A stretch of DNA of 15,511 nucleotides. Source: Thermoflexales bacterium (GTDB lineage Bacteria; Chloroflexota; Anaerolineae; Fen-1058). Positions 3,896 through 15,511 of this stretch are shown piece by piece (the stretch's first letter is position 1; each line of letters begins with the position of its first letter). The stretch is taken from positions 1-15,511 of the forward strand of contig JAFGFO010000015.1 in NCBI GenBank assembly GCA_016931085.1, in the 5' to 3' direction. The notes under the pieces are model-generated. The model saw only the letters and a program-made list of their open reading frames with translations, ran no database searches and was not told the origin of the DNA. The translations under genes were made by a program, and so were the position numbers.

Positions 3896-6178
3896 TCACA
3901 ACTCTCCGCTCTTTGTCAATAAGGGGTCGTTGCAAGTCGACGGCGAACTCAATATCTTCCTCACTCGCGTAGTCTCTGACCGATTAGGTAGCCAAATAGT
4001 CTCATCCCGTCTAATTTTGGTGGTAAGGTGCTCGCTTTGCAGAAGACCAAGGATATCAGGAACCAGCCTGCGAGATCTATGGTCAAGTCCCCTGCACAAT
4101 GCACTCTCTTTACGACCTGCGCCGGCTTGGAGATAGAGTTTCTTCAATACTGTCAGTGTCACCCGTACTCCGATAGGCAAATCTAGTTTCAAAATGGCAT
4201 TGGTCGTTTCCACAGTTTGAGAGAAGCTGTCAAAAACACACCCGCCCAGAAAAATATTCTGTGGCAATTCTGCCTCTGATACTACTCCGTCAATCTCTGC
4301 AAAGTAGCACCCACGAAACCGAGGCAATTGCGCAGCATCTACGTCACTATCGATCTCTAGTCGTGAGAAATAACACTCTTGAAATTCTATGCCAGAGAAA
4401 GCTCCCATACCTTTGGGTAGTTCGAGATCAGGGATTAAAGTATTTTTCACATAAACGTTATATTGGATAGGCCACTGTTTCTCAAAGGCAATCCTTACCA
4501 AATCCGTAGTGAGAAGTGCAGCATCATAAGATTCAGCCGCTTTCCTCAGAGCAGGGTTCAATTTTCCACTTGAATAGCCTAGATTGGAAAGTCGGTTTGC
4601 GGCAACGGAGATGCCTAACGACCGCAAGGCACATTCAGCATTCGCAAAGAGCTCAAGATCAAAGGCGAATGGATTGTTTGCAAATTCAACGACGTCTCCA
4701 ACCCTACACACATCCGCCCAATCTTCATCAATAAACCGACGTGTGTCTTCCTCTACCTGGTCGATTCCCAGCCCTGGCAGGCGTTGCAGCAAGACCATGG
4801 CCAATTCATTCGGCTGATACCCACAGATTTCTTTGAAAGCGTCGATAATTTGATCTGATGTCAAAGGACCTAGACCATCCTGGGATACACGAGCTTTTGT
4901 TGCCAGTCTTTCAAGGATACGCTTGAGCGTATCGCCATCTATCCCAGCTTCGATTTTAGCTTCCCGGCGTACAACTTGGTCTAACAAAGTATTCCACCCA
5001 ATAGCAGGATCGACAACTCCTTTTGCCATACCGTCTGATTGTGTGATCCCCTTAAGTAAACCTTTCGCTACAAGAGTGCCCAACAACAGTGGCCTTGCAG
5101 GTAGCCAGGCTGGCATACCTTCTTTGGGGAACTTGTGTTTCTCCAAGTATGTCGTAATCTGTTTTTCAGTAAAATCATTGAGACTCAATTTTACAAAAGA
5201 TAGGTCGATAGCAAGTGCTTTGGAGCACTCGTCCTCTCCATCGAAGAAGTGGGCCCTTCCTGCCATGGTAAGTCCAGCTTCAGGCGGAGTATCTTGGACA
5301 AACTCGCGAATCATTTGCATAGAGCGATAGCGAACTTCACGCAACGTTTTCCAAACACCTACCCACCCCAGGATTGAGATTTCGTCAAAACCATCTAATA
5401 ACAAGATGGCATAGCCGGCTCGCCAGGCTCGGACAAGGTGCGAGTGAGATGCAAATCCAATATTGCGAGCGTGACGTTCCAGCACCTCAGCAGGATTTAT
5501 TTGCCCAATGTGATCCCGCAGGTTCAGATAAACAGGAAATTGCGGAATGTGTCCCTTATGATGTCGTTTCCTCAATTCGAAATAGATTTCGCGCATGGTC
5601 ATACTCTTGCCAGCGCCATAATCACCAAGAAGAAGCACCCGCCCGCCACTCACCAGACGGTTGCAAATCTCTCCCACACTCCACAGGTTACTCGAGCCCG
5701 TCTCTACCAGATCCAGAGGTACGTACTCAACGGTTGGATTAAGGGAATCCGTCTCGGGGTCACGCACACTTCCAAAAGAATAGTTATTCCGGGCGCTGAG
5801 GTAACTTTTCGTGTCAATCAGCCTGCTCTGAAAGTGTGCAAAGGAAAGAGGAACGACAGATCCCTTAAATTGACGAACCTCTTCCCTTTGATCACCAGTC
5901 GGTTCTTGTTGGGTGATAAACCAACATTTGACAGCCTTGTCTGAATATCGGCGCTGAAACTGCTTTGCCAGGCCGTCCAATTTTTTAGCGTCCCCCCTGG
6001 CTTTTGCACGCTGCCGCGATGTAGTGGCTTCAATCAAGTGGATGCAATCTTCCGTAATAAAGACTCCATCACATTCACGCCCGCTAATGATGCGACTGCC
6101 ATCGAACTCGGCCTCAGGCCAGAGATGCCGCGCGATGCGTCTCACCTCATCTTCAAATATTGTGTCATCATAGTTCAT
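3896..6178 (-). CDS. STAND defence protein: restriction-endonuclease-like N-terminus fused to a NACHT NTPase
   Basis: A 760-aa predicted intracellular sensor. Residues about 5-125 look like a PD-(D/E)xK nuclease fold: an early acidic helix (E10/E11), D37 in ECDGVFI, then E50-x-T52 in HLIEATTS with downstream lysines K57, K59 and K65/K66. The usual catalytic lysine is replaced by Thr. Residues about 175-390 are a NACHT module: Walker A GDYGAGKS (185-192), Walker B with ILLLDGFDEIS (258-268), and R308 in TMAGRAHFF as a sensor-type arginine. Residues 390-560 fit a winged-helix and helical region. Residues 590-650 contain repeated FxECYFSRLEID-like strands resembling pentapeptide-type beta units, a possible sensing region. 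In the STAND family, ligand binding drives oligomerisation and activates the effector. It lies 55 bp after the methyltransferase stop and is AT-richer than that gene, so it may have been acquired separately. The start has AGGAG about 12 bases upstream, wider than ideal. Confidence 0.82.
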   Translation of the reverse strand: MNYDDTIFEDEVRRIARHLWPEAEFDGSRIISGRECDGVFITEDCIHLIEATTSRQRAKARGDAKKLDGLAKQFQRRYSDKAVKCWFITQQEPTGDQREEVRQFKGSVVPLSFAHFQSRLIDTKSYLSARNNYSFGSVRDPETDSLNPTVEYVPLDLVETGSSNLWSVGEICNRLVSGGRVLLLGDYGAGKSMTMREIYFELRKRHHKGHIPQFPVYLNLRDHIGQINPAEVLERHARNIGFASHSHLVRAWRAGYAILLLDGFDEISILGWVGVWKTLREVRYRSMQMIREFVQDTPPEAGLTMAGRAHFFDGEDECSKALAIDLSFVKLSLNDFTEKQITTYLEKHKFPKEGMPAWLPARPLLLGTLVAKGLLKGITQSDGMAKGVVDPAIGWNTLLDQVVRREAKIEAGIDGDTLKRILERLATKARVSQDGLGPLTSDQIIDAFKEICGYQPNELAMVLLQRLPGLGIDQVEEDTRRFIDEDWADVCRVGDVVEFANNPFAFDLELFANAECALRSLGISVAANRLSNLGYSSGKLNPALRKAAESYDAALLTTDLVRIAFEKQWPIQYNVYVKNTLIPDLELPKGMGAFSGIEFQECYFSRLEIDSDVDAAQLPRFRGCYFAEIDGVVSEAELPQNIFLGGCVFDSFSQTVETTNAILKLDLPIGVRVTLTVLKKLYLQAGAGRKESALCRGLDHRSRRLVPDILGLLQSEHLTTKIRRDETIWLPNRSETTRVRKILSSPSTCNDPLLTKSGEL

Positions 6179-6233
6179 TTTTCTTCGGTTCTCCTGCTAC
6201 CTCAAGGCTGTTATGAGCTTATCATGCTCACCC

Positions 6234-9200
6234 TCACTCCACCGGCCAAGCCGGAATAGCCGCGTCAATCTCGTCCATCAGCCGGATCGTCTCTCGCAGC
6301 GCAACCACGATCCGGGCATAGTGCGCCTTGTCTGCACTGTCCAACTCGTACCCGCGCCGGTCCTTGAGCCACTTGTGACACACCTGGTAGCCGCCGACGT
6401 GAAACTCCCACACCTCCTCCGGCACACCCTGGAAACCCTGCCCGGCGTTCATCCACACGGTGCTATCGTCATACTTGGGGTAGCCCCGCGCCACCACGTC
6501 GTCGCCCCGGCCCACAAAGCGGGTGATCGGCTTGTCGAGCGCGGGCGACTCCAGCAGGTGCAGACCGACCAGCTCGGCCCCCAGCCCCGCCAATGTGCGG
6601 AACAGCCCCAGGTCGCGCGTGAGCGGCAGGCGCGGAAAGTCGATCTTGAGAAATTCGGCGTAGCGCGTGCGGTAGGTAGGCGAGTGAAAGACGGCGTACA
6701 TGTAGTGGAAGACATCCTCCGGGCCAAAGGTCTTGCGCAGGTCACCCATGCCATCAGGGATAAAGGTGAGATTGAGATTGTCGCTAATGGTTCGGATGAA
6801 GGTAGGTGCGAAATTGGGCACGCGCGTGGTCTCAGTTTGAGCAAAGAGGGTACCAGCGGTGGATTCGGCCGTGGTGTAAAGGTAGAGGGGAAAGATGGAT
6901 GACCCATCTTTGACTTCAACAAACACAGCAGGCGTTGGACAGTCACTGACCAGTGCATGTTGCCACCTCTCGGCTTTTGTTTGGCGAACGAGATTGAAAG
7001 CAAGATTCGGTTTGAGCAAATGTCTTGTGACTTCTAGTCGTGGATAATCCATTGCCACTTCACTGAAATAAGTAGGGCGTATATCAAATGGACGATATAA
7101 GCAATCAATCAAATCATCTTCCCAGTGTGAATTTCGTCGCAACCGAGCTCGAGCGACGCTGAGCTTCCAATCCCGATTATCTGGCACTTCATACTTTCTC
7201 CGAAAATCGTCGTCACTCAACTGTGTGTCACGCATTTCCTTTATGCGGTGGCGTAGAGCAGCTCGGTCAAGATCGATCGCAAAGTAATCACGATGCGACT
7301 GGAAACCCAACACGTTGACTGGCATCACCTCTGTGATCTTCCATCCTTGTTCATACTCCGTTCGTACATTGACGTTCTGCGGTACAAAAAGATAAAATGG
7401 CGAGGTGGGTTGTAAGTCCATCCATTCAACGGTTGAAACATCGTGGCTTGCAAGGAAGTCATATTTGCCTTCGCGTATGCCATAGAGGTCAGCGTGGTGA
7501 ACCCTAACCTCAATTGGCTTTGCCAATCGCCTCTCCCCCCTCGCTAGTGCGACAGACGAGGAGTGTTTGACCGCCAACAGGATGGCTACACCTTGCTGGA
7601 TATCGAAGACGTTTTCGTCTTTGCCTCCATCAGGGGCGGTTTCTTTTTTCTTGGTGTTGCCGTGCAAGTCTGACACATAGATGTCATCAAATGTGCCCAA
7701 CAGTTGTTGGCGCATACCTCGAAAAGTGGGATTGTCGAGATAACCGTGATTGGTGATCATTGCCACGATCCCCGCGCCAGCCTGCTCAATGCGCCACTGG
7801 GCAAAGCGAATGAACTTGACGTAATCGTCTTGCAGCCACTTGGGATTACGCTCGCCCAACGACGCACCATCCACCTGGTAATACGAGCGCACCAGCGAGC
7901 CAATCCACTCACCCTTGTTGGCCGAATGACCAGAGTACGGCGGATTGCCAATGATGACGGTGACCGGCACCTCGGTCTTGACCCGGTTGGCCTCTTCAGC
8001 CTCGTGCGCCAGGGAGGGCGTGTCCACGCGCGGGACTTCGTGCGCCGGCTGGAGCGTGTTGGTCAGGTACACGCGCAGCCGCTCGTCCGAGCCAAAGTCG
8101 TAGCCGGTCTGCTGCAGCGCCAGCCCCAGCTTCATGTGCGCCACGGCATACGGCGCCATCATCAGCTCGAAACCGTACAGGCGCGGCAGCAGGTGGCGGG
8201 CGACGTACTCGTTCCAGGCCAGAGCAATCTCCATGGGGCGCAGCCCCGCTTTCTCGGCGTTGCGGGTGAATGTGTCGTAAATCTGCTCGATGACGTGATT
8301 GAGAAAGGTGCCGGTGCCGGTGGCCGGGTCGAGAATCTGCACCTTGGGCACCATCTGCCCCTTCCACGCCATCTCGCCGGTATCGGCCAACCCGTCGGGG
8401 CAGCCAAACTCGGTCCGCAGCAGATAATCCACCGAGCGGACAATGAACGAGACGACCGAGTCGGGGGTGTAAAACACGCCGCGCCGGGCCTTTTTGTCGG
8501 GATCGTATTCGCGCAGGAAGGACTCGTAAAAGTGGACGACGGGGTCCTCCTTGTGCTCCTTGCTCTGGCGGCCAAAGTCGCGCAGCACGGCCTCCATGTT
8601 CACCCCGCGCAGCATGTCCACCAACTCGCCCACCCCCAACTCGTCCATGTCCACCTGTGCCCCGCGCCGGCCGCCGCCCACCTTCAGACACTCGGCAAAC
8701 AGGTCGCGCAAAAATGGACTGGTGTTGGGGATCAGCCCGGCCACGTCGCCGGCCTGGGGCGCAAATTCGCCCGTGCGGGTGGCGCGCGCCGAAAACAGGC
8801 CGTAGGTCACCGTCTGGGCGTACATGTCGGCAAAGTCGTCCACGCTCAAGTCGTGAATCAGCGCGCGCCGGAACGACTCGTGCAAGCGATGCAGCACGCC
8901 AGTGGCTTTTTCGTACTCGTAAACCTCGTTGACCAGGGCGCGGGTGGCGGCGGCCAGCTCCGCCATGCGTGAGGCCAAAGCCTGGGAGGTGGTGATGGTT
9001 TCGCGGTGAGCGGAGACAAAGGCCGAGTCCCACTGCTCGCGCCAGGCCTCGGCGTCGCCGGTGTCATCGGGCCAGCGCAAAGCTTCCAGGTTAAGCTTTT
9101 CCAGGTAATAAAAATGCCGCTCGTCGGCGTCCCACGAAAAGGTGCGCAGTTGGGGCAGCCCACCCGGCGTGTCGTGAAAGTGCGCGAAGGAAATGCCGCG

Positions 9201-9578
9201 CTCGCGGCCCTGGCCGGTGGCCGAGATGAACATCAGATCGTCCAGGTCCCAAACAGCTTGCCGGCTGCGCTTGCTCCCGCGCTTCTTGCGCACCAGGGCG
9301 GCCAGCACGCGGCGCATGACCACCACCGGCAAGCGTTTAGGCTCAAAGTCGATCCAAAACACACCCCACGGCTGCCCCTCCACCAACGGGCGAATCTGCT
9401 TGATCGCCCGCACCTTGACGGCGGCCTGCTCGTCCAGCCCCAATTCTTCCGGCTCATAGTCAAAGGCCAGGTCCTCGACGTCCTCCTCTTCCACGATGGG
9501 CCAATCGAGGTGCTCGTGCAAATACCCCACCAGCGACTCGAAATCTTGTATGGACTTGATCGCGGCATAATCGGGCAT
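6234..9578 (-). CDS. Type ISP-like N6-adenine DNA methyltransferase with specificity domain
   Basis: The 1114-aa product has a conserved N-terminal domain (about 1-170, including WGVFWIDFEPKRLPVVVMRR and DLDDLMFISA). A helical coupler (about 185-365) with the YGLFSAR motif near 259-265 follows. The gamma-class methyltransferase core has GVFYTPDSVV (368-377), motif I ILDPATGTGTF (415-425) and motif IV IGNPPYSG (543-550), where NPPY marks adenine-N6 or cytosine-N4 methylation. The C-terminal 500 residues hold the target recognition region and end in a block with FLKIDFPRLPLTRD, characteristic of the type ISP C-terminal specificity domain. It should modify host DNA at an asymmetric site using S-adenosylmethionine. 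It starts 11 bp after the helicase gene, with AAAGGA six bases before the ATG, so the two form one operon. Unlike single-chain type ISP enzymes, the nuclease and helicase are on the separate upstream gene. Confidence 0.88.
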   Translation of the reverse strand: MPDYAAIKSIQDFESLVGYLHEHLDWPIVEEEDVEDLAFDYEPEELGLDEQAAVKVRAIKQIRPLVEGQPWGVFWIDFEPKRLPVVVMRRVLAALVRKKRGSKRSRQAVWDLDDLMFISATGQGRERGISFAHFHDTPGGLPQLRTFSWDADERHFYYLEKLNLEALRWPDDTGDAEAWREQWDSAFVSAHRETITTSQALASRMAELAAATRALVNEVYEYEKATGVLHRLHESFRRALIHDLSVDDFADMYAQTVTYGLFSARATRTGEFAPQAGDVAGLIPNTSPFLRDLFAECLKVGGGRRGAQVDMDELGVGELVDMLRGVNMEAVLRDFGRQSKEHKEDPVVHFYESFLREYDPDKKARRGVFYTPDSVVSFIVRSVDYLLRTEFGCPDGLADTGEMAWKGQMVPKVQILDPATGTGTFLNHVIEQIYDTFTRNAEKAGLRPMEIALAWNEYVARHLLPRLYGFELMMAPYAVAHMKLGLALQQTGYDFGSDERLRVYLTNTLQPAHEVPRVDTPSLAHEAEEANRVKTEVPVTVIIGNPPYSGHSANKGEWIGSLVRSYYQVDGASLGERNPKWLQDDYVKFIRFAQWRIEQAGAGIVAMITNHGYLDNPTFRGMRQQLLGTFDDIYVSDLHGNTKKKETAPDGGKDENVFDIQQGVAILLAVKHSSSVALARGERRLAKPIEVRVHHADLYGIREGKYDFLASHDVSTVEWMDLQPTSPFYLFVPQNVNVRTEYEQGWKITEVMPVNVLGFQSHRDYFAIDLDRAALRHRIKEMRDTQLSDDDFRRKYEVPDNRDWKLSVARARLRRNSHWEDDLIDCLYRPFDIRPTYFSEVAMDYPRLEVTRHLLKPNLAFNLVRQTKAERWQHALVSDCPTPAVFVEVKDGSSIFPLYLYTTAESTAGTLFAQTETTRVPNFAPTFIRTISDNLNLTFIPDGMGDLRKTFGPEDVFHYMYAVFHSPTYRTRYAEFLKIDFPRLPLTRDLGLFRTLAGLGAELVGLHLLESPALDKPITRFVGRGDDVVARGYPKYDDSTVWMNAGQGFQGVPEEVWEFHVGGYQVCHKWLKDRRGYELDSADKAHYARIVVALRETIRLMDEIDAAIPAWPVE

Positions 9579-9589
9579 AGGCTGTCCTT

Positions 9590-12500
9590 TCAGCTCAACT
9601 CTATCCAGGCTTTGAGCGCCGGCTTGACCCCCTGCGGCGCGACGGCCGATTTGAGGTAGGTGTTTTTAATGTGCTTTTCCACCTTTTTGCGAACCTCCCG
9701 CAGCGTCTCGGCCTCCACCACGCAGCGGCGCGGCGTGTCGGGTTGGCTGCGGATCACGGTCTCGATCCACTCGGCGTCATCCTGGATTTTCTCGGTCGCC
9801 AGGTCGTACAGATACCACTGGGTGTAACCGGCTTCCAGCGTCCACTGGCCGCTGGCTTGATCCAGCGCCGGCAGTGCGTAGCAGAAAAACACGCCCCGCG
9901 CGCCTTCCGAGGGGTGAGAGCGCCCGCTAAAGACGCGCAGCGGCAAGCGCGCCAGCCGCTCCTCCAGGCCGGGATGAGCGGCCAGCAAGTCGTAATAAGC
10001 CAGGCGCATGGCCTCGACGGGCGAAGGCGCGCCGTCGTAGGCCAGGTTGAACTCTTTGAGCGCCTTGTAATGATCTTCTGGCTTGATCAACTTGCGTCCC
10101 TCGATGCCAAAGACCGTGGAAATTCTCAACACCTTGTGGGCGACCCGCTCGTATAGCGCCAGCAGGCGGTCCAGCTCGTCCGGCGGCAAAAAGTTCCAAT
10201 AGCGCACTATGCGGCGCACTTGGCCCCAATCCGGGTGATCAGCCAACATCTTTTCCTCCACGGCCAAGTCGAGGCGGCGGTCCACGCGGCCGATGCGCTG
10301 CATCAAGCGCACCGGGTTCCAGTGCAGGTCGTAATTGATCAGCAGCGTGGCATCCTGCAGGTTGAGGCCCTCCGAAAGCACGTCGGTGGAAATCAGCACG
10401 CGCGTTTCGCCGACGCCCGCCAGGGCCAAATCGCGGCTGGACGAGTCATTGTAGTAGGGCGAAAAGGCGGTGATGATCCTGCCGCGGTTGCGCTCCACGT
10501 GGCTGTGTACCACGTCCAGGGGACCGATTTTCTCCCGTTTCAATTCGTCGTACAGGTATTGGGCCGTCTCCATGTACTCGGTAAAGATCAAGACCTTGTG
10601 TTGGCTGAGGGGCGGCTCGCCCAGCAGCTCGATCAAGGCTTGCAGCTTGCTGTCTCGCCCGGGCGTAAAGTCTGCCAGATCACCGAGAAAGACAATCAAC
10701 TCGTCCAGATCGAGATAGGTCTCGTCCAGGATTTCGCCCACCCGGTACTCGTCGCGCCGCAGCGTTTCGACCGCCTCCAACAGCTCGACCGGCAGCACGT
10801 CCTCCTCCTCGTCCTCGGCAAGCAAGTCCTGGTTCTGGCGCACGCGCGCGAGTGCCCCCGCGTGCTGCCCTTGCCAGCGTTCCAGGCGGCGCTGTTCGGC
10901 CGGGGTGATGCTGTTGGCCTGGACAAAAGCCCACAGCTTGAGCAGCAGCCGCTCGCAGGTGGCCCGAAAGGCGTGCGTCGAGCTTTCAAAGCGCTTGAGC
11001 AGTTGGGTGCGGATCAGCCCAACGACCTGCGCCTGGCGGCCCTTCTGCATGGGGTCGAAGCCGGCGTCAGAGCCGACGGGATAGGCCAGGGGATAATAGA
11101 TGGCCAGGCTCAACAGGGGCTTGTCCTTGCGAAAGGCCCGTTCGAGATCGTCCAACAACTGGCCGTAGGTCTCGCGCAGCGAATACTCGCCCACCTTGGG
11201 CGGCTCACGATCCGGGAAAACCACCTGGCCCCCGCCGTGCTGTTCCTGGCTCGCGCGGGCATACGCCCGGCTGCGCTGGACGACCAGCGAGCGAAAGAGA
11301 TCGTCCTGGCCCAAAACCCGCTCGGCCTCGTGCATCGAAATCTCGACGCCGGCGCTCTGCCCACCTGTCAGCCGTTCCAGCGCATTGTCCAGCGTGCGAA
11401 AGTGGCCGGGCAGCGAGTGGATGCCCAGCGCGCGGAAATAGTCGGCCTGGCGGCGCGAAAACAGCTCGATCAAGTGCTGCAGATCGAGCAGGCTGTTGTT
11501 GATGGGCGTGGCGGTGATGAGATACACTTGCTTGCCTTCCAGCATGTCGTACAACTGGCGGTAACGCTGGGCGGCCTGATTGCGAAAGTGATGCGCTTCG
11601 TCGATGATGACGACGTCGGCCTGGCGCTTGACCTCGTCCATGTAGGCCGGAAAGTCGTTGCCGCGCAGCAGGTCGGTGTGGTTGTAGATGACCAGGTTGT
11701 TGCCAAAGCGCGAGCTGGCCAAGCCCGGCAGGTAGCGCTCCAGCTTGCTTTCCCACACCGGCTGCCTGGCGGCCTTGGGCACGAACAGCGCCACCCGCTT
11801 GCGCTCGTGCAGCAGCCGCTCGATCAGCATCATGCCGATAAAGGTCTTGCCCAGCCCAACGCTGTCGCACAGCAGCGCCCCGTTGTAGCGTCCGGCGTAT
11901 TTCAGCAGCGCGTGGTAGCCTTCTCGCTGGTACTGATCCAGCAGAGGATAGACGCGCGACTGGCTCTGCTCCCACTCGGTGGCCGTCAGCTCGTGGCCGC
12001 GGAAGAACTCGTGGAGCGCCTTGGCGTACACCTCGAAGGGCGTATAGTCGCGGACGTGGGGTTGAATCGTCCGCAGGATGTTGGGCGTGACGTCCTCGGC
12101 CTGTTCCCAGTACGCCTCGTACCACGCTTGCAGATCCTTTACCCCGCTCTGCAAGCGCACGTTCAGCTCGATGTTTTCGTGCAGGCCGGGGTGGGTAAAG
12201 TTGCTCGAGCCGACCAGCGCCGTCGCGCCCATCACGTCGAAGCGGGCGTGGGTGATGTAAGCCTTGGCGTGAAACTTGCGCTCGCGGTAGACGCGGCAGA
12301 CGATTCGCCCGCTCTGCAGCGCCGCCACGATGGCCGGCACGCCGCCGAGAAAGTCGTTCTTTTCCTTTTCGCTCTCCAGGCTGTGGTCGAGCTTGAGCGT
12401 GATCTTGCCCAGGGCGGCCTCGAACGCTTGTTTAGTCTTGATGCTCACCTCGTCGCCCATGAGGATGCGGATGCGTTCCAGCTTTTGCCACTGCCCGTCG

Positions 12501-12715
12501 AGCGCCAGCAGCGCGCCGATCTCGAAATAGCCGGTGGCCACGTCAAGCTGGCGGGCCACGTCGCACCATTCGCTCAGATAGCGGGCGGCTTGCCACTGCT
12601 CGTCGCTGTTGTCCACGACGAACAGCTCGCCGCCGCGCCGTTCGTCCTCCGGCATGGGCGAGGTTGGTGGAGCTTGGGGTGGGGCTTGCTGCCGGCTTGG
12701 TCTTGGTCTGGGCAA
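9590..12715 (-). CDS. PLD-family nuclease fused to an SF2 (SNF2-like) helicase, restriction partner of the methyltransferase
   Basis: From the TTG start at 12715 the product is 1041 aa. Residues about 30-215 form a phospholipase D-like nuclease domain: HAK at 149-151 (HxK of the HKD motif), GSSN at 169-172 and ENIEL after it. The helicase follows with Walker A region DSVGLGKT (284-291), DEAHH (372-376), TATP (401-404), then the second RecA domain with KVLIFTEY (707-714), STDVLSEGLNLQ (776-787) and QRIGRVDRR (806-814). The C-terminal 190 residues are of unknown role. Such PLD-helicase proteins are predicted to translocate on DNA and cut unmodified target; the paired methyltransferase would protect the host. 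A longer reading frame begins at an ATG at 12793, but AGGAGG eight bases before the TTG, and the basic Pro/Arg/Gln linker that begins there, favour TTG. Another candidate start is ATG at 12655. Confidence 0.87.
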   Translation of the reverse strand: MPRPRPSRQQAPPQAPPTSPMPEDERRGGELFVVDNSDEQWQAARYLSEWCDVARQLDVATGYFEIGALLALDGQWQKLERIRILMGDEVSIKTKQAFEAALGKITLKLDHSLESEKEKNDFLGGVPAIVAALQSGRIVCRVYRERKFHAKAYITHARFDVMGATALVGSSNFTHPGLHENIELNVRLQSGVKDLQAWYEAYWEQAEDVTPNILRTIQPHVRDYTPFEVYAKALHEFFRGHELTATEWEQSQSRVYPLLDQYQREGYHALLKYAGRYNGALLCDSVGLGKTFIGMMLIERLLHERKRVALFVPKAARQPVWESKLERYLPGLASSRFGNNLVIYNHTDLLRGNDFPAYMDEVKRQADVVIIDEAHHFRNQAAQRYRQLYDMLEGKQVYLITATPINNSLLDLQHLIELFSRRQADYFRALGIHSLPGHFRTLDNALERLTGGQSAGVEISMHEAERVLGQDDLFRSLVVQRSRAYARASQEQHGGGQVVFPDREPPKVGEYSLRETYGQLLDDLERAFRKDKPLLSLAIYYPLAYPVGSDAGFDPMQKGRQAQVVGLIRTQLLKRFESSTHAFRATCERLLLKLWAFVQANSITPAEQRRLERWQGQHAGALARVRQNQDLLAEDEEEDVLPVELLEAVETLRRDEYRVGEILDETYLDLDELIVFLGDLADFTPGRDSKLQALIELLGEPPLSQHKVLIFTEYMETAQYLYDELKREKIGPLDVVHSHVERNRGRIITAFSPYYNDSSSRDLALAGVGETRVLISTDVLSEGLNLQDATLLINYDLHWNPVRLMQRIGRVDRRLDLAVEEKMLADHPDWGQVRRIVRYWNFLPPDELDRLLALYERVAHKVLRISTVFGIEGRKLIKPEDHYKALKEFNLAYDGAPSPVEAMRLAYYDLLAAHPGLEERLARLPLRVFSGRSHPSEGARGVFFCYALPALDQASGQWTLEAGYTQWYLYDLATEKIQDDAEWIETVIRSQPDTPRRCVVEAETLREVRKKVEKHIKNTYLKSAVAPQGVKPALKAWIELS

Positions 12716-12723
12716 GGCTATTT

Positions 12724-12729
12724 CCTCCT
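12724..12729 (-). promoter_or_regulatory. Ribosome-binding site that decides a TTG start
   Basis: On the minus strand AGGAGG lies here, followed by eight bases (AAATAGCC) and TTG at 12715. Neither the in-frame ATG at 12793 nor the one at 12655 has a comparable site, and the promoter-like -10 hexamer at 12780-12785 sits just inside the longer frame, so the mRNA probably does not include the 12793 codon. Confidence 0.7.
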
Positions 12730-12779
12730 GGCACGCGCGTATCACTCGTCTCACTATCCCTTTGCGCTCTACAATATAC

Positions 12780-12806
12780 ATTATACATTTCATTTTTTTT
12801 TTGCAA
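12780..12806 (-). promoter_or_regulatory. Candidate promoter for the PLD-helicase/methyltransferase operon
   Basis: The minus strand has a perfect TATAAT at 12785-12780 and TTGCAA at 12806-12801, with a short 15-bp spacer made mostly of an A-tract. Transcription would begin near 12773, leaving a leader of about 57 bases before the TTG start with its AGGAGG. The -10 match is strong; the spacing is below the usual 16-18 bp, so confidence is limited. Confidence 0.45.
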
Positions 12807-12827
12807 ATCAGCGAAATTGGGTGTAAC

Positions 12828-12853
12828 GCGTATTACGTATAGCGTATTGCGTA
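12828..12853. repeat. Tandem 12-bp repeats between divergent genes
   Basis: GCGTATTACGTA at 12828-12839 and GCGTATTGCGTA at 12842-12853 differ by one base and are spaced 14 bp. They lie between the two divergent promoters, where an operator could control both the restriction module and the TIR receptor. The same kind of short TACGTA-rich tract could also be drifting low-complexity sequence. Confidence 0.6.
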
Positions 12854-12875
12854 ATCTCATTGGAGTGGGTAAGCT

Positions 12876-12905
12876 TTGCCCAAATGCGGTGTTTTGTGGT
12901 AAACT
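12876..12905 (+). promoter_or_regulatory. Candidate promoter giving a leaderless TIR-receptor transcript
   Basis: TTGCCC at 12876-12881 and TAAACT at 12900-12905 are separated by 18 bp and resemble weak sigma-70 -35 and -10 boxes. The receptor ATG at 12912 begins six bases after the -10 box, at the position expected for the transcription start, and no Shine-Dalgarno precedes it. This fits leaderless translation, but the hexamers are imperfect. Confidence 0.35.
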
Positions 12906-12911
12906 TGTCGT

Positions 12912-14744
12912 ATGGAGCCTTCCAGTGCCGAGATTCGCCAATTTCTGAGAGATCTGGTGAGCGACGACGAGCTTACCGAGTTGTGCTTTGACTATTTCCG
13001 CGACGTCCAGGCCGATTGGGCGGCCGGTATGCAAAAAGGACAAAAGATACAAGCCCTGCTGGATTACTGCGAGCGGCATGGGAAGACTCCCCACCTCCTG
13101 ACGGCTATGAGTAAGTCGTGGCCTGAGCGTTACCGGCAGCGTTTCGCGTCCGTCTTGCCGGCGGCCCCTTCGGCTCCCCCCACACCTCTCCAACGCGACC
13201 CCCGGCAGGTCTTTATCAGCCACGCGCACCAGGATGCGGACATGGCCCACCGCCTGGCGGCTGATCTGCAAGCAGGAGGGTGGCCGGTGTGGATCGCGCC
13301 GGACAGCATCCAATCGGGCGAGCGATGGGTCAGCGCGATCAATCGAGGGCTGAAAGCAAGCGGCGTGTTTGCCCTTGTATTGACGCCGGCCGCCGTCAAT
13401 TCGGACTGGGTTCAAGACGAGACTAGTGCGGCACTCGAGATGACAAAGCGGGAGGGCATGCGCTTTATCTCGCTGGATGTCGAGCCTTGTGACGTGCCGC
13501 CGTTGTGGGGTGTTCGTCAGCACATCTCGTTTCAAGGCAGTTACGAGAGAGGGCTGTCGCGCTTGTTGGCCTGGTTGGAGCAAAGGTCGCCGGCGGCGTC
13601 ACCGGTACCATCCACAAAGGTTCCTTCTTCGCCTGATAAACAGGCCCTCGATCTAGGGACAAGCATTGCTCCTACGCCGATTTCTCGCCCTTCTACAAGA
13701 GTATCCCCACAACTGGCGTCGAGACGTACCAAGTCGCCTTGGTGGAAAATGATTGTGGGTGGGTTGCAACAGCTTCGTGTGCCGGCCTGGGGAGTGGCGG
13801 CCCTGGCGTTGCCAGCGCTCGTGGCGCTTTGGCTTGTGGGACAAAGTGTGTTCCCTTCGCATGGGTCAGCCAGCACTGCCACGGCTACCGCGACTATGCC
13901 AGTTGCTAACCTGAATCCCACGACAGCCATTCCTCCCCCGACGGCCACGCCTATGCCCAAACTGGGTGAGCAGACGACGCGCCCGGTGGACGGCATGGTG
14001 ATGGTCTACGTGCCGGCTGGCGAGTTTATGATGGGCAGCACCGACGAAGAGGTGAATCAGGCTTGGGAATTGTGTAAGCAGTATTACGCTAGTTGTTCAA
14101 AAGACTGGATTACGCGGGAACAACCGAGGCACAAGGTGAGCCTGAATGCGTTTTGGATCGACCGGACGGAGGTGACGAACGCGCAGTACAAAAAGTGCGT
14201 GAATGCCGGCGCGTGTGAGGCGTCATCGTACGCCAATGAATCCAGTTATAACGGTGAGGATCAGCCGGTAGTGGGCGTGAGTTGGAGTGATGCGAACGAG
14301 TATTGCAAGTGGGCCGGTGGGGAACTGCCAACCGAGGCGCAGTGGGAGTACGCGGCGCGTGGGACGGACGGGCGAACTTTTCCGTGGGGGAACGAGCAAG
14401 CCACGTGCGATTACGCGGTGATGAATGATGGGAGTGGAAGTGGGTGTGGTAAGGGAGTGGCATGGCCGGTGGGAAGCAAGCCGAAAGGGGCGAGTTGGGT
14501 GGGGGCGCAGGATATGGCTGGCAATATATGGGAGTGGGTGGCGGATTGGTATGGAGCGTATCCGTCCGAGGCACAGACAGATCCCACTGGCCCGGCGACC
14601 GGGAGTTCACGCGTGCTGCGTGGCGGTAATTGGTCCGGCGACCCGGCCTACGTGCGCGCGGCCGTCCGCTACGGTCTCGCGCCCGGCGACCGTCGCGGTT
14701 ACGTCGGTTTCAGGTGTGTCGTTGTTGGTGCGCCAGGACAGTGA
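12912..14744 (+). CDS. EAD-TIR-transmembrane-FGE/C-type-lectin receptor, target protein of a diversity-generating retroelement
   Basis: The 610-aa product has an N-terminal helical death-like effector-associated domain (about 1-76, with LRDLVSDDELTELCFDYF). A TIR domain follows at about 97-225: VFISHAHQD at its start, an SIQSGERWVSAI loop, and W166-x3-E170 giving the NADase glutamate. A basic stretch (RRTK near 271-274) precedes one membrane helix (about 290-314), then a Thr/Ala/Pro stalk (316-350). Residues 356-606 are an FGE-sulfatase-fold domain (VPAGEFMMGS, FWIDRTEVTNAQY, LPTEAQWEYAARG, DMAGNIWEWVADW, VLRGGNW, VGFRC). The positive-inside pattern puts TIR in the cytoplasm and the lectin-like domain outside; it holds eight cysteines. 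The substrate-pocket segment lacks the catalytic FGE cysteines, so it is read as a ligand-binding domain. Residues 575-597 are the hypervariable part. TIR activation would be expected to consume NAD+ and signal through EAD contacts; that is inference. Confidence 0.9.
   Translation: MEPSSAEIRQFLRDLVSDDELTELCFDYFRDVQADWAAGMQKGQKIQALLDYCERHGKTPHLLTAMSKSWPERYRQRFASVLPAAPSAPPTPLQRDPRQVFISHAHQDADMAHRLAADLQAGGWPVWIAPDSIQSGERWVSAINRGLKASGVFALVLTPAAVNSDWVQDETSAALEMTKREGMRFISLDVEPCDVPPLWGVRQHISFQGSYERGLSRLLAWLEQRSPAASPVPSTKVPSSPDKQALDLGTSIAPTPISRPSTRVSPQLASRRTKSPWWKMIVGGLQQLRVPAWGVAALALPALVALWLVGQSVFPSHGSASTATATATMPVANLNPTTAIPPPTATPMPKLGEQTTRPVDGMVMVYVPAGEFMMGSTDEEVNQAWELCKQYYASCSKDWITREQPRHKVSLNAFWIDRTEVTNAQYKKCVNAGACEASSYANESSYNGEDQPVVGVSWSDANEYCKWAGGELPTEAQWEYAARGTDGRTFPWGNEQATCDYAVMNDGSGSGCGKGVAWPVGSKPKGASWVGAQDMAGNIWEWVADWYGAYPSEAQTDPTGPATGSSRVLRGGNWSGDPAYVRAAVRYGLAPGDRRGYVGFRCVVVGAPGQ
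14608..14738 (+). repeat. DGR variable repeat (VR) inside the receptor gene
   Basis: The core 14612-14735 matches 14999-15122 over 124 bp at a fixed offset of 387. All 17 differences fall on adenines of the downstream copy (8 A-to-G, 6 A-to-T, 3 A-to-C). The edges extend to about 14608 and 14738 if further adenine-only differences are accepted. The changed codons are residues 575, 576, 577, 580, 585, 587-589, 592, 593 and 595-597, with 567 possible. The invariant 3' half (about 14703-14735) is where the initiation of mutagenic homing would lie. The VR ends six bases before the stop codon. Confidence 0.93.
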
Positions 14745-14746
14745 GC

Positions 14747-14774
14747 TTCTGGATTTCTGGGTTCTGGATTTCTG
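14747..14774. repeat. Direct repeat after the receptor stop codon
   Basis: TTCTGGATTTCTG is present twice, at 14747-14759 and 14762-14774, with a period of 15 bp. It sits between the receptor stop codon and a GC-rich hairpin. Similar 'ctggatttctgg' tracts are common low-complexity sequence in some Chloroflexota; no role is assigned. Confidence 0.6.
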
Positions 14775-14786
14775 CGGGGGTGGGGG

Positions 14787-14811
14787 CTGGGGAGGGGCTT
14801 CCCCTCCCCAG
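14787..14811. promoter_or_regulatory. GC-rich perfect hairpin downstream of the VR, possible DGR target cruciform
   Basis: CTGGGGAGGGG at 14787-14797 and CCCCTCCCCAG at 14801-14811 pair perfectly over 11 bp with a 3-nt loop. In the Bordetella phage DGR, a GC-rich hairpin just after the VR is known to promote retrohoming. Here it lies about 50 bp after the VR end, farther than in that model. No U-tract follows, which argues against a simple intrinsic terminator. Confidence 0.6.
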
Positions 14812-14818
14812 GTTAAAT

Positions 14819-14850
14819 CCGCGCGAAGCGCGGCCGATTTTGAGGATTTT
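14819..14850 (+). terminator. Possible weak intrinsic terminator of the receptor gene
   Basis: CCGCGC (14819-14824), loop GAA and GCGCGG (14828-14833) form a 6-bp stem, followed by CCGATTTT and, after GAGGA, a further T-run. The T-tract is interrupted and starts four bases after the stem, so termination would be partial. Readthrough into the template repeat is possible and would supply the DGR RNA. Confidence 0.35.
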
Positions 14851-14994
14851 TCAGGTAGGCCCACCGGTTGAGGATTCGTGAAAACGTACGAGAATGTAAG
14901 CAAAAAACGGAACAAAGGCGTCAATCGGAAGCCTCGCTTGCTTTGCCCAACGGGGTGAGCATGCCATGGGTAACCGATACGTGGGGGCAGGCCG

Positions 14995-15125
14995 AAAACG
15001 TGCTGCGTGGCGGTAATTGGAACGACAACCCGGCCAACGTGCGCGCGGCCAACCGCAACGATAACGCGCCCGACAACCGTAACGATAACGTCGGTTTCAG
15101 GTGTGTCGTTGTTGGTGCGCCAAGA
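14995..15125 (+). repeat. DGR template repeat (TR)
   Basis: The core 14999-15122 is the adenine-rich partner of the VR in the receptor gene. Its variable codons are nine AAC, two GAC and two GAT, holding 22 adenines, of which 17 differ from the VR. The remaining four adenines of the core and all 98 non-adenine positions are unchanged. In a DGR this segment is transcribed, copied by an error-prone reverse transcriptase that misincorporates opposite adenines, and the cDNA replaces the VR. The orientation is the same as the target gene, as usual. A reading frame passes through it, but it is the template rather than a protein-coding gene. Confidence 0.93.
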
Positions 15126-15511
15126 GAGGTTCCCGCAAGCCAGGTGCGCCGGGTTTATGGACGCGGCGCTACGCCCAAGGGATCAAGTCCAGGCCTGTTC
15201 CCGGTGGTGCGACACAGCGCGCCCCACCAAAGAACAATGTGCCCTGCCCTGTGTGGTAGATCCTGATTTTGGATTCGACGCTCAGGGCAGGGCCGCTTTT
15301 TTGAGGCATTTGGCATTTGCGCGGAAAGAGTGGATCACGAAAGGCACGAACGCTTCGCGCCTTTCATGCGCGAAAGGGGGTTTCGCGCTTTTCGCGGTCT
15401 TTCGCGAGTTCGCGGTTCAAACTCGCGAGCGTTTCACGCTGGGGACTAATTTCACGCTTTGGAGTTGAGGCTTTAGCCGGAGAAACCGCCTTCCAAAGGA
15501 CGCAAAGCGAA
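15126..15511 (+). ncRNA. Structured spacer after the TR, probable 3' part of the DGR template RNA and leader of the next gene
   Basis: No credible gene is seen in these 386 bp. In characterised DGRs the RNA used by the reverse transcriptase includes the TR and a structured spacer downstream of it, before the RT gene. This stretch contains an 11-bp stem (15241-15251 with 15283-15293), a second hairpin GCGCGAAA/TTTCGCGC (15368-15375 with 15381-15388) and a third 9-bp stem (15402-15410 with 15420-15428). The right part is rich in TTCGCG/CGCGAAA words, which may simply be a low-complexity intergenic tract. The RNA 3' end is not determined. Confidence 0.45.
15241..15302 (+). terminator. Long-range stem followed by a T-tract downstream of the TR
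   Basis: GCCCTGCCCTG at 15241-15251 pairs perfectly with CAGGGCAGGGC at 15283-15293 around a 31-nt loop, then CGC and six Ts end at 15302. It could end the template RNA, or be a structural element of that RNA. The long loop is unusual for an intrinsic terminator. Confidence 0.4.

Follow-up and report, generated by a model that had tools for sequence, protein, structure and literature searches.

How was the end of a TIR-domain gene rewritten from a template beside it, if the DNA that carries both holds no reverse transcriptase (RT)? The question is raised by the right end of the window, as the whole contig of 15,511 nt that was analysed is called here, which stops 386 nt behind a template repeat (TR).

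Repeat pair and variable codons

An earlier note had counted 17 differences between two 124-bp copies (14612–14735 and 14999–15122) and had read them as a template/variable pair of a diversity-generating retroelement (DGR). The counts are exact: every one of the 17 differences falls on one of the 26 adenines of the downstream copy and all 98 non-adenine sites are identical (98/98; hypergeometric p 9.05e-15), and this confinement to adenines bears out the reading. In the extended pair 20 of 31 adenine sites and 0 of 99 other sites are changed. The following stretches are the two repeats of a DGR and its target gene:

12912–14744, plus strand: target gene EAD7-TIR-FGE, an open reading frame that ends with the VR (Pfam, AlphaFold model)
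14609–14738, plus strand: variable repeat (VR; adenine-bound differences, in-frame codon analysis)
14996–15125, plus strand: TR (adenine-bound differences, in-frame codon analysis)

Read in the frame of the target, the template codons of the variable core are ten AAY and four GAY. Thirteen of these 14 are altered in the VR, each to a different amino acid, and changes of adenine cannot create a stop in any of the 14. By arithmetic the core codons allow 15^10 x 4^4, about 1.5e14, protein variants. Because the VR shows no non-adenine difference from the TR its rewriting is recent, so that of the phrase "actively or recently mutagenised" in the earlier note the second half stands; the first half is not borne out, with no RT or Avd on the contig and a cassette that is likely RT-less.

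Target protein

The upstream copy had also been placed at the 3' end of a TIR gene whose product carries an FGE/C-type-lectin-like domain, and Pfam and the predicted fold agree with this. FGE-sulfatase (PF03781) matches the C-terminal part with E 2.3e-52, and EAD7 (E 2.4e-16) and TIR_2 (E 1.2e-24) are both past the cut-off. The protein consists of EAD7 (residues 8–68), TIR_2 (100–219), a linker, a predicted membrane helix (292–312), a Pro/Thr-rich linker and FGE (364–603). An AlphaFold model (pLDDT 83, pTM 0.51) is confident for EAD7, TIR and FGE and of low confidence in the linkers, and it has a helix at residues 292–312 with which a hydrophobic segment coincides. In a fold search with this model the FGE part resembles solved FGEs (E 7.6e-21) as well as the variable protein 2y3c of Treponema denticola (E 1.9e-15).

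Homologues were compared in two ways. Among the 105 with an RGG.W/F motif within the 120 matches listed, 68 have a hydrophobic stretch between TIR and FGE on a crude hydrophobicity scale, and the N side is the more positive one in 50 of these; because this holds for most such homologues the FGE head is predicted to lie outside the membrane. In 43 homologues, the window included, mean entropy is 3.17 bits at the 14 variable codons compared with 1.36 at the other 21 VR residues and 1.26 in the TIR domain, and for this reason the target family overall looks DGR-diversified. VR residues 579 and 590 do not have adenine codons in the window, yet they are equally variable among the 43. E170 of the TIR domain, which we take to be its NADase glutamate, is invariant in these 43 sequences. 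A tRNA-Gly called by ARAGORN at 13782–13871, where the linker and the membrane helix are coded, is likely a false positive, as it lies inside the reading frame and has no Rfam match.

DGR loci in related genomes

An RT profile matches 83 of 396 related genomes, all of the class to which genome G003 belongs, at E <= 1e-50; at most four RT candidates per genome were scored in this survey, and 16 genomes were later rechecked in full. A scan for TR/VR pairs covered 104 loci (100 RT neighbourhoods, L009, L010, L012 and the window) and gave a match in 81, one of which (L204) is a mere palindrome; 77 were kept. The most frequent order is VR-RT-Avd-TR (38 of 77). Thirteen targets were chosen for Pfam, and the eight with TIR among them are not to be read as a frequency. 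At L231 (8192–11464) a second target on the opposite strand, EAD8-TIR-NACHT-FGE, uses the TR of its neighbour in common.

The relatives give a measure of what lies between the repeats of the window:

14748–14774, plus strand: TCTG repeats 3' of the VR, 4 copies in 75 nt
14787–14811, plus strand: 11-bp GC-rich hairpin 48 nt past the VR, resembling DGR target hairpins or cruciforms as judged by its letters
14878–14958, plus strand: 26-codon frame starting VKTYENV, the first 7 codons a likely relic of an RT start
14981–14994, plus strand: motif before the TR, GTGGGGGCAGGCCG, common to L215 and L191

At least three TCTG copies follow the VR in 60 of the 77 loci, the window included, compared with 5 of 1540 controls, and a stem of at least 8 bp lies within 120 nt behind 48 of 90 VRs (again with the window) compared with 78 of 1800 random pieces. 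TCTG repeats and hairpin behind the VR are features of the class. The pre-TR motif class occurs in 20 of 77 loci and in 22 of 2310 control pieces. The VKTYENV frame was scored with a profile of 31 RT starts, aligned on M/V/L-K-T-Y-x-N/H-L or close to this form; they were chosen among 45 starts, out of 103 RTs, that fitted a pattern. Of the random genomic 257-mers 40 of 4976 (0.8%) score at least as high, as do 9 of 5000 shuffles, which makes the seven codons suggestive of, and no proof for, a relic of an RT start. The codons after them may be the tail of avd; the match is too weak for such a tail to be claimed.

Structured RNA behind the template

15123–15312, plus strand: structured 3' part of the predicted DGR RNA, sp-like (similarity, model R1, covariation; no Rfam family)
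15241–15302, plus strand: last helix of the RNA, then six T, a terminator-like end (inverted-repeat search)
15313–15511, no strand: tail to the contig end, without RT or Avd, with short inverted repeats

The best RNA matches to the window by far are two complete DGRs, L215 and L191, to which this region is 73.7–74.4% identical over 164–175 nt. The covariance model R1 was built from these three sequences; it scores the RNA of the window, from which it was partly built, at 198.5 bits and finds matches behind the TR in 19 of 53 further loci at E <= 0.01, with L215 and L191 counted. In an alignment of 34 sequences 41 of 43 pairs have changes on both sides and 90.7% of the cells are paired, compared with 35–47% in slid controls, figures that are biased towards the structure to which the alignment was fitted. 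Rfam has no match to the RNA of the window even at E 1, and a pattern scan of IMG/VR for it gave 0 matches. The final helix was not listed by a simple terminator scan, the loop limit of which is 8. A motif scan of 12700–15511 found no sigma-70-like promoter on the plus strand, and expression of the RNA is therefore unsupported by the promoter scan. In the phage BPP-1 a spacer RNA in the corresponding place is described to recruit RT-Avd (PMC12875486).

In the tail, positions 15336–15478 hold short inverted repeats and one arm (about 15467) of an inverted repeat which in L215 stands ahead of RT starts; the core of this arm was found in 3 of 235 sequences searched.

Where are RT and Avd?

No RT was found among the nine proteins of the window by Pfam. 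Models of RT (from 97 relatives) and of Avd (from 78) found nothing in six frames of the contig, which ends 386 nt past the TR, and an RT hidden in the window is ruled out by the Pfam and six-frame RT searches together. The reading that we hold to be probable is that the window carries the TR and the VR of a DGR on an EAD7-TIR-FGE gene, with RT and Avd off the contig and likely deleted from between the repeats. VR and TR are 1786 nt apart in L215 and 1774 nt in L191, with RT and Avd between them, compared with 387 nt in the window, the gap of which (257 nt) retains the post-VR elements, the VKTYENV frame and the pre-TR motif. Because the closest relatives place RT and Avd exactly where the window has this relic-bearing gap, the cassette is likely RT-less. 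RT relics of other loci keep the N-terminus (L281, L296) or both ends with the middle gone (L280). By the first 60 residues the targets of L280 and L212 are sister-like, both being TIR-FGE proteins with an EAD7 match under the Pfam cut-off; VR and TR are 1713 nt apart in L212, which has an RT, and 876 nt in L280 with its relic. Downstream of the complete DGR of L215 lie two extra truncated RT starts (8865–9029 and 10036–10507), with another DGR RNA in front of the second.

It is rather unlikely that the window belongs to a complete DGR of the usual kind, with the order VR-TR-(Avd)-RT and an RT that begins just past the contig end. Ten of the 77 loci do have the TR 284–360 nt behind the VR and the RT to the right, the contig stops 386 nt behind the TR, one of the ten (L146) has 502 nt from the TR to its next match, and the arm near 15467 also occurs ahead of RT starts in L215. 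However, in nine of these ten relatives the next RT or Avd match follows 211–327 nt behind the TR and would already show within the 386 nt, where the window has none. Furthermore, the RNA of the window groups with VR-RT-Avd-TR relatives and not with the VR-TR-RT class, and the gap holds the RT-start-like relic.

An assembly chimera that dropped RT and avd between two repeats is a very improbable source: the window is a single 15.5-kb contig and VR and TR are repeats, but a repeat-driven collapse would merge the two into a single copy rather than leave both with a spacer between them, and a similar layout is seen in other genomes. Chance, or plain duplication followed by random divergence, deserves practically no weight in view of the confinement to adenines (p 9e-15), which rules out plain duplication of the 124-bp copies, and of the cis elements common to relatives.

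Under the favoured reading, deletion of RT and Avd, the history of the locus would be as follows. The RNA would have been cotranscribed with the target, probably ending at the terminator-like helix, and an RT-Avd complex would have bound its structured part and made a cDNA with random errors at the adenines of the template. This cDNA would have homed to the VR, helped by the hairpin, and would have been written over the end of the EAD7-TIR-FGE gene. The FGE domain, predicted to lie outside the membrane, may serve as a variable ligand-binding head that signals through the TIR domain inside. Once RT and Avd were lost, the VR could be rewritten again only by RT-Avd acting in trans, without which it would stay frozen in its present form.

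RT-less cassettes elsewhere

A second RNA model, R2, for which some of the searched genomes had themselves supplied sequences, detects the RNA at E <= 0.001 in 72 of 396 genomes (105 matches). The 86 strongest matches were used and the 19 weakest left out. Forty-two of the 86 lie more than 3 kb from any surveyed RT, and their surroundings are as follows:

RT present after all: 4 (3 partial, at a contig end)
RT relics: 3
Clean VR-TR-RNA cassettes: 7
Repeat pair by relaxed alignment only: 2
Cassettes at a contig end: 2
Avd without RT: 5 (2 near a contig end)
RNA directly behind an FGE gene: 7
Others: 12, mostly near a contig end

The clean cassettes (L264, L269, L274, L276, L288, L291 and L293) are flanked on each side by 3.6 kb or more of sequence without RT or Avd, and their VR-to-TR distance is 228–356 nt. 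Five of their targets were scanned and are TIR-FGE (L264, L274), NACHT-FGE (L269, L276) and CHAT-FGE (L288) genes; in the wider Pfam scan of eight chosen RT-less or RT-relic targets five have TIR, which is again not a frequency. At least three TCTG copies stand behind the VR in four of the seven, one in L293 and none in L288 and L291. L261, L285 and L292 have Avd but, with 3 kb or more of sequence on each side, no RT.

Seven loci (L255, L258, L271, L279, L282 at 8935–9116, L283 and L297) have the RNA directly behind an FGE gene without a separate TR, so that the gene's own end stands where the template would be; this end is AAC-rich and template-like in L279 and L297. L262 (8700–9104) has a lone template-like stretch with RNA and no target or RT match within 8.9 kb on each side.

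Whether such a cassette still works divides the favoured reading, a DGR without its own RT and Avd, in two. We consider it possible, and hold it tentatively, that the window is a working RT-less cassette which is rewritten in trans by RT-Avd of another DGR in the cell. The cis parts are present and the window pair has 0 of 99 non-adenine differences. In addition, nine RT-less cassettes (the seven clean ones and two at a contig end, pooled) are adenine-bound like 76 RT-bearing loci: 114 of 203 adenine and 4 of 629 other sites differ in the former, 1262 of 2208 and 26 of 6039 in the latter. The scan behind these counts prefers clean pairs, however, and under relaxed alignment L282a has 11 and L289 has 4 differences at other sites. 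The genomes of five of the seven clean cassettes contain a full-length match to DGR RT elsewhere, but no full DGR RT was found in G317 and G288 (clean cassettes) or in G236 (L280). In G227 an RT-bearing locus of that genome comes 2nd and 3rd of 84 in the rankings by the RNAs of its two cassettes, whereas the RNA of L264 ranks the RT locus of its own genome 72nd of 84, and for L269 and L274 there was no such locus to compare. Trans action has been argued from metagenomes for Thiohalocapsa (PMC10907252).

A recently dead DGR, the RT lost, the VR frozen and the repeats uneroded so far, is held just as tentatively and would account for the same observations. RT and Avd are missing and RT relics recur among relatives; G236 (a 4.67-Mb contig) has an RT relic only, and its TR and VR differ at 24 adenines and at no other site. 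On the other side, the RNAs of L264, L269, L274 and L293 each best-match another of these four, and because of this a lasting lineage rather than fresh wrecks is hinted at.

We tentatively suggest that RT-less cassettes of target and template may be a standing, non-autonomous class of DGRs in which TIR-, NACHT- and CHAT-FGE genes are hypermutated in trans, each cassette with its own template and RT-recruiting RNA and unseen by RT-anchored surveys.

Comparison with known systems

The window resembles the DGR of Bordetella phage BPP-1 as described (PMC3240598, PMC12875486) in the adenine-only TR/VR changes, the GC-rich hairpin behind the VR and the structured RNA behind the TR. Hairpins behind the VR as such are known (PMC3240598); that of the window has a 3-nt loop and lies 48 nt from the VR, whereas in BPP-1 a 4-nt GRNA loop at 4–34 nt is described. 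BPP-1 has the order avd-TR-brt, while in the window the TR directly follows the target and the contig is without avd and RT. Unlike that of BPP-1, as far as described, the RNA of the window ends in a terminator-like helix.

For Thiohalocapsa PB-PSB1, DGR targets with TIR, NACHT, EAD and CLec/FGE domains are reported together with degenerate loci in which the RT is missing or broken, and trans action is proposed (PMC10907252). In DGR 4 and 5 there, the RT has given way to repeat arrays; the two match the TR of DGR 2, and the RT of DGR 3 is broken by a transposon in one genome (PMC10907252). In contrast, the target in the window is still accompanied by its own TR and RNA although RT and Avd are absent from the contig, and this layout recurs across genomes. 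The cyanobacterial DGR variable proteins, some of them TIR-like, are likewise CLec targets with signalling domains; their remote targets are described by the VR and tied to the TR of a DGR elsewhere (PMC7517822). The complete DGRs L215 and L191, which have the RNA family in common with the window, and L212 with its TIR-FGE target and sub-threshold EAD7 differ from the window in that RT and Avd lie between VR and TR.

TIR, EAD and NACHT proteins as DGR targets are thus already in print (PMC10907252, PMC7159879, PMC7517822), as are degenerate loci with a missing or broken RT and trans action (PMC10907252). Neither RT-less target-template cassettes as a class nor the RNA family of the window was found among titles and abstract openings of the open-licence PMC literature. 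As far as this literature was searched, the recurrent compact RT-less cassettes, the covarying RNA family and the TCTG-plus-hairpin element in the class are apparently new. The pipeline of Roux et al. (2021) looks for the RT first and then for repeats around it, and by its own account leaves DGRs on remote targets undetected (PMC8144416); a search anchored on the RNA recovers cassettes which an RT-first pipeline passes over. Beyond phage BPP-1, the covariance model also offers access to the RNA by which RT-Avd would be recruited. Should the cassettes be active in trans, a single RT could serve a whole set of immune receptors and diversify each with the template it carries.

If the prediction of a TIR protein anchored in the membrane, with a hypervariable head outside, holds, the target would be a hypermutable counterpart of Toll-like receptors with the domain order reversed. 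In the EAD/TIR conflict systems an EAD is fused to an effector domain and a cognate EAD sits on a core component (Kaur et al. 2020, PMC7159879); the former feature is present in the target, and no second EAD7 was found by Pfam in the nine proteins of the window, so that a partner may be encoded in another part of the genome. Searches of phage and plasmid records with the target match 21 and 481 records, none over 80% of the target, and among the matches listed (20 of each) the similarity is to its FGE part. Defence-like neighbours occupy the minus strand at 3899–12793, namely a NACHT protein (3899–6178), a type IIG (Type ISP) restriction enzyme (6237–9578) and a PLD-SNF2 helicase (9593–12793; HKD+Snf2 in PADLOC).
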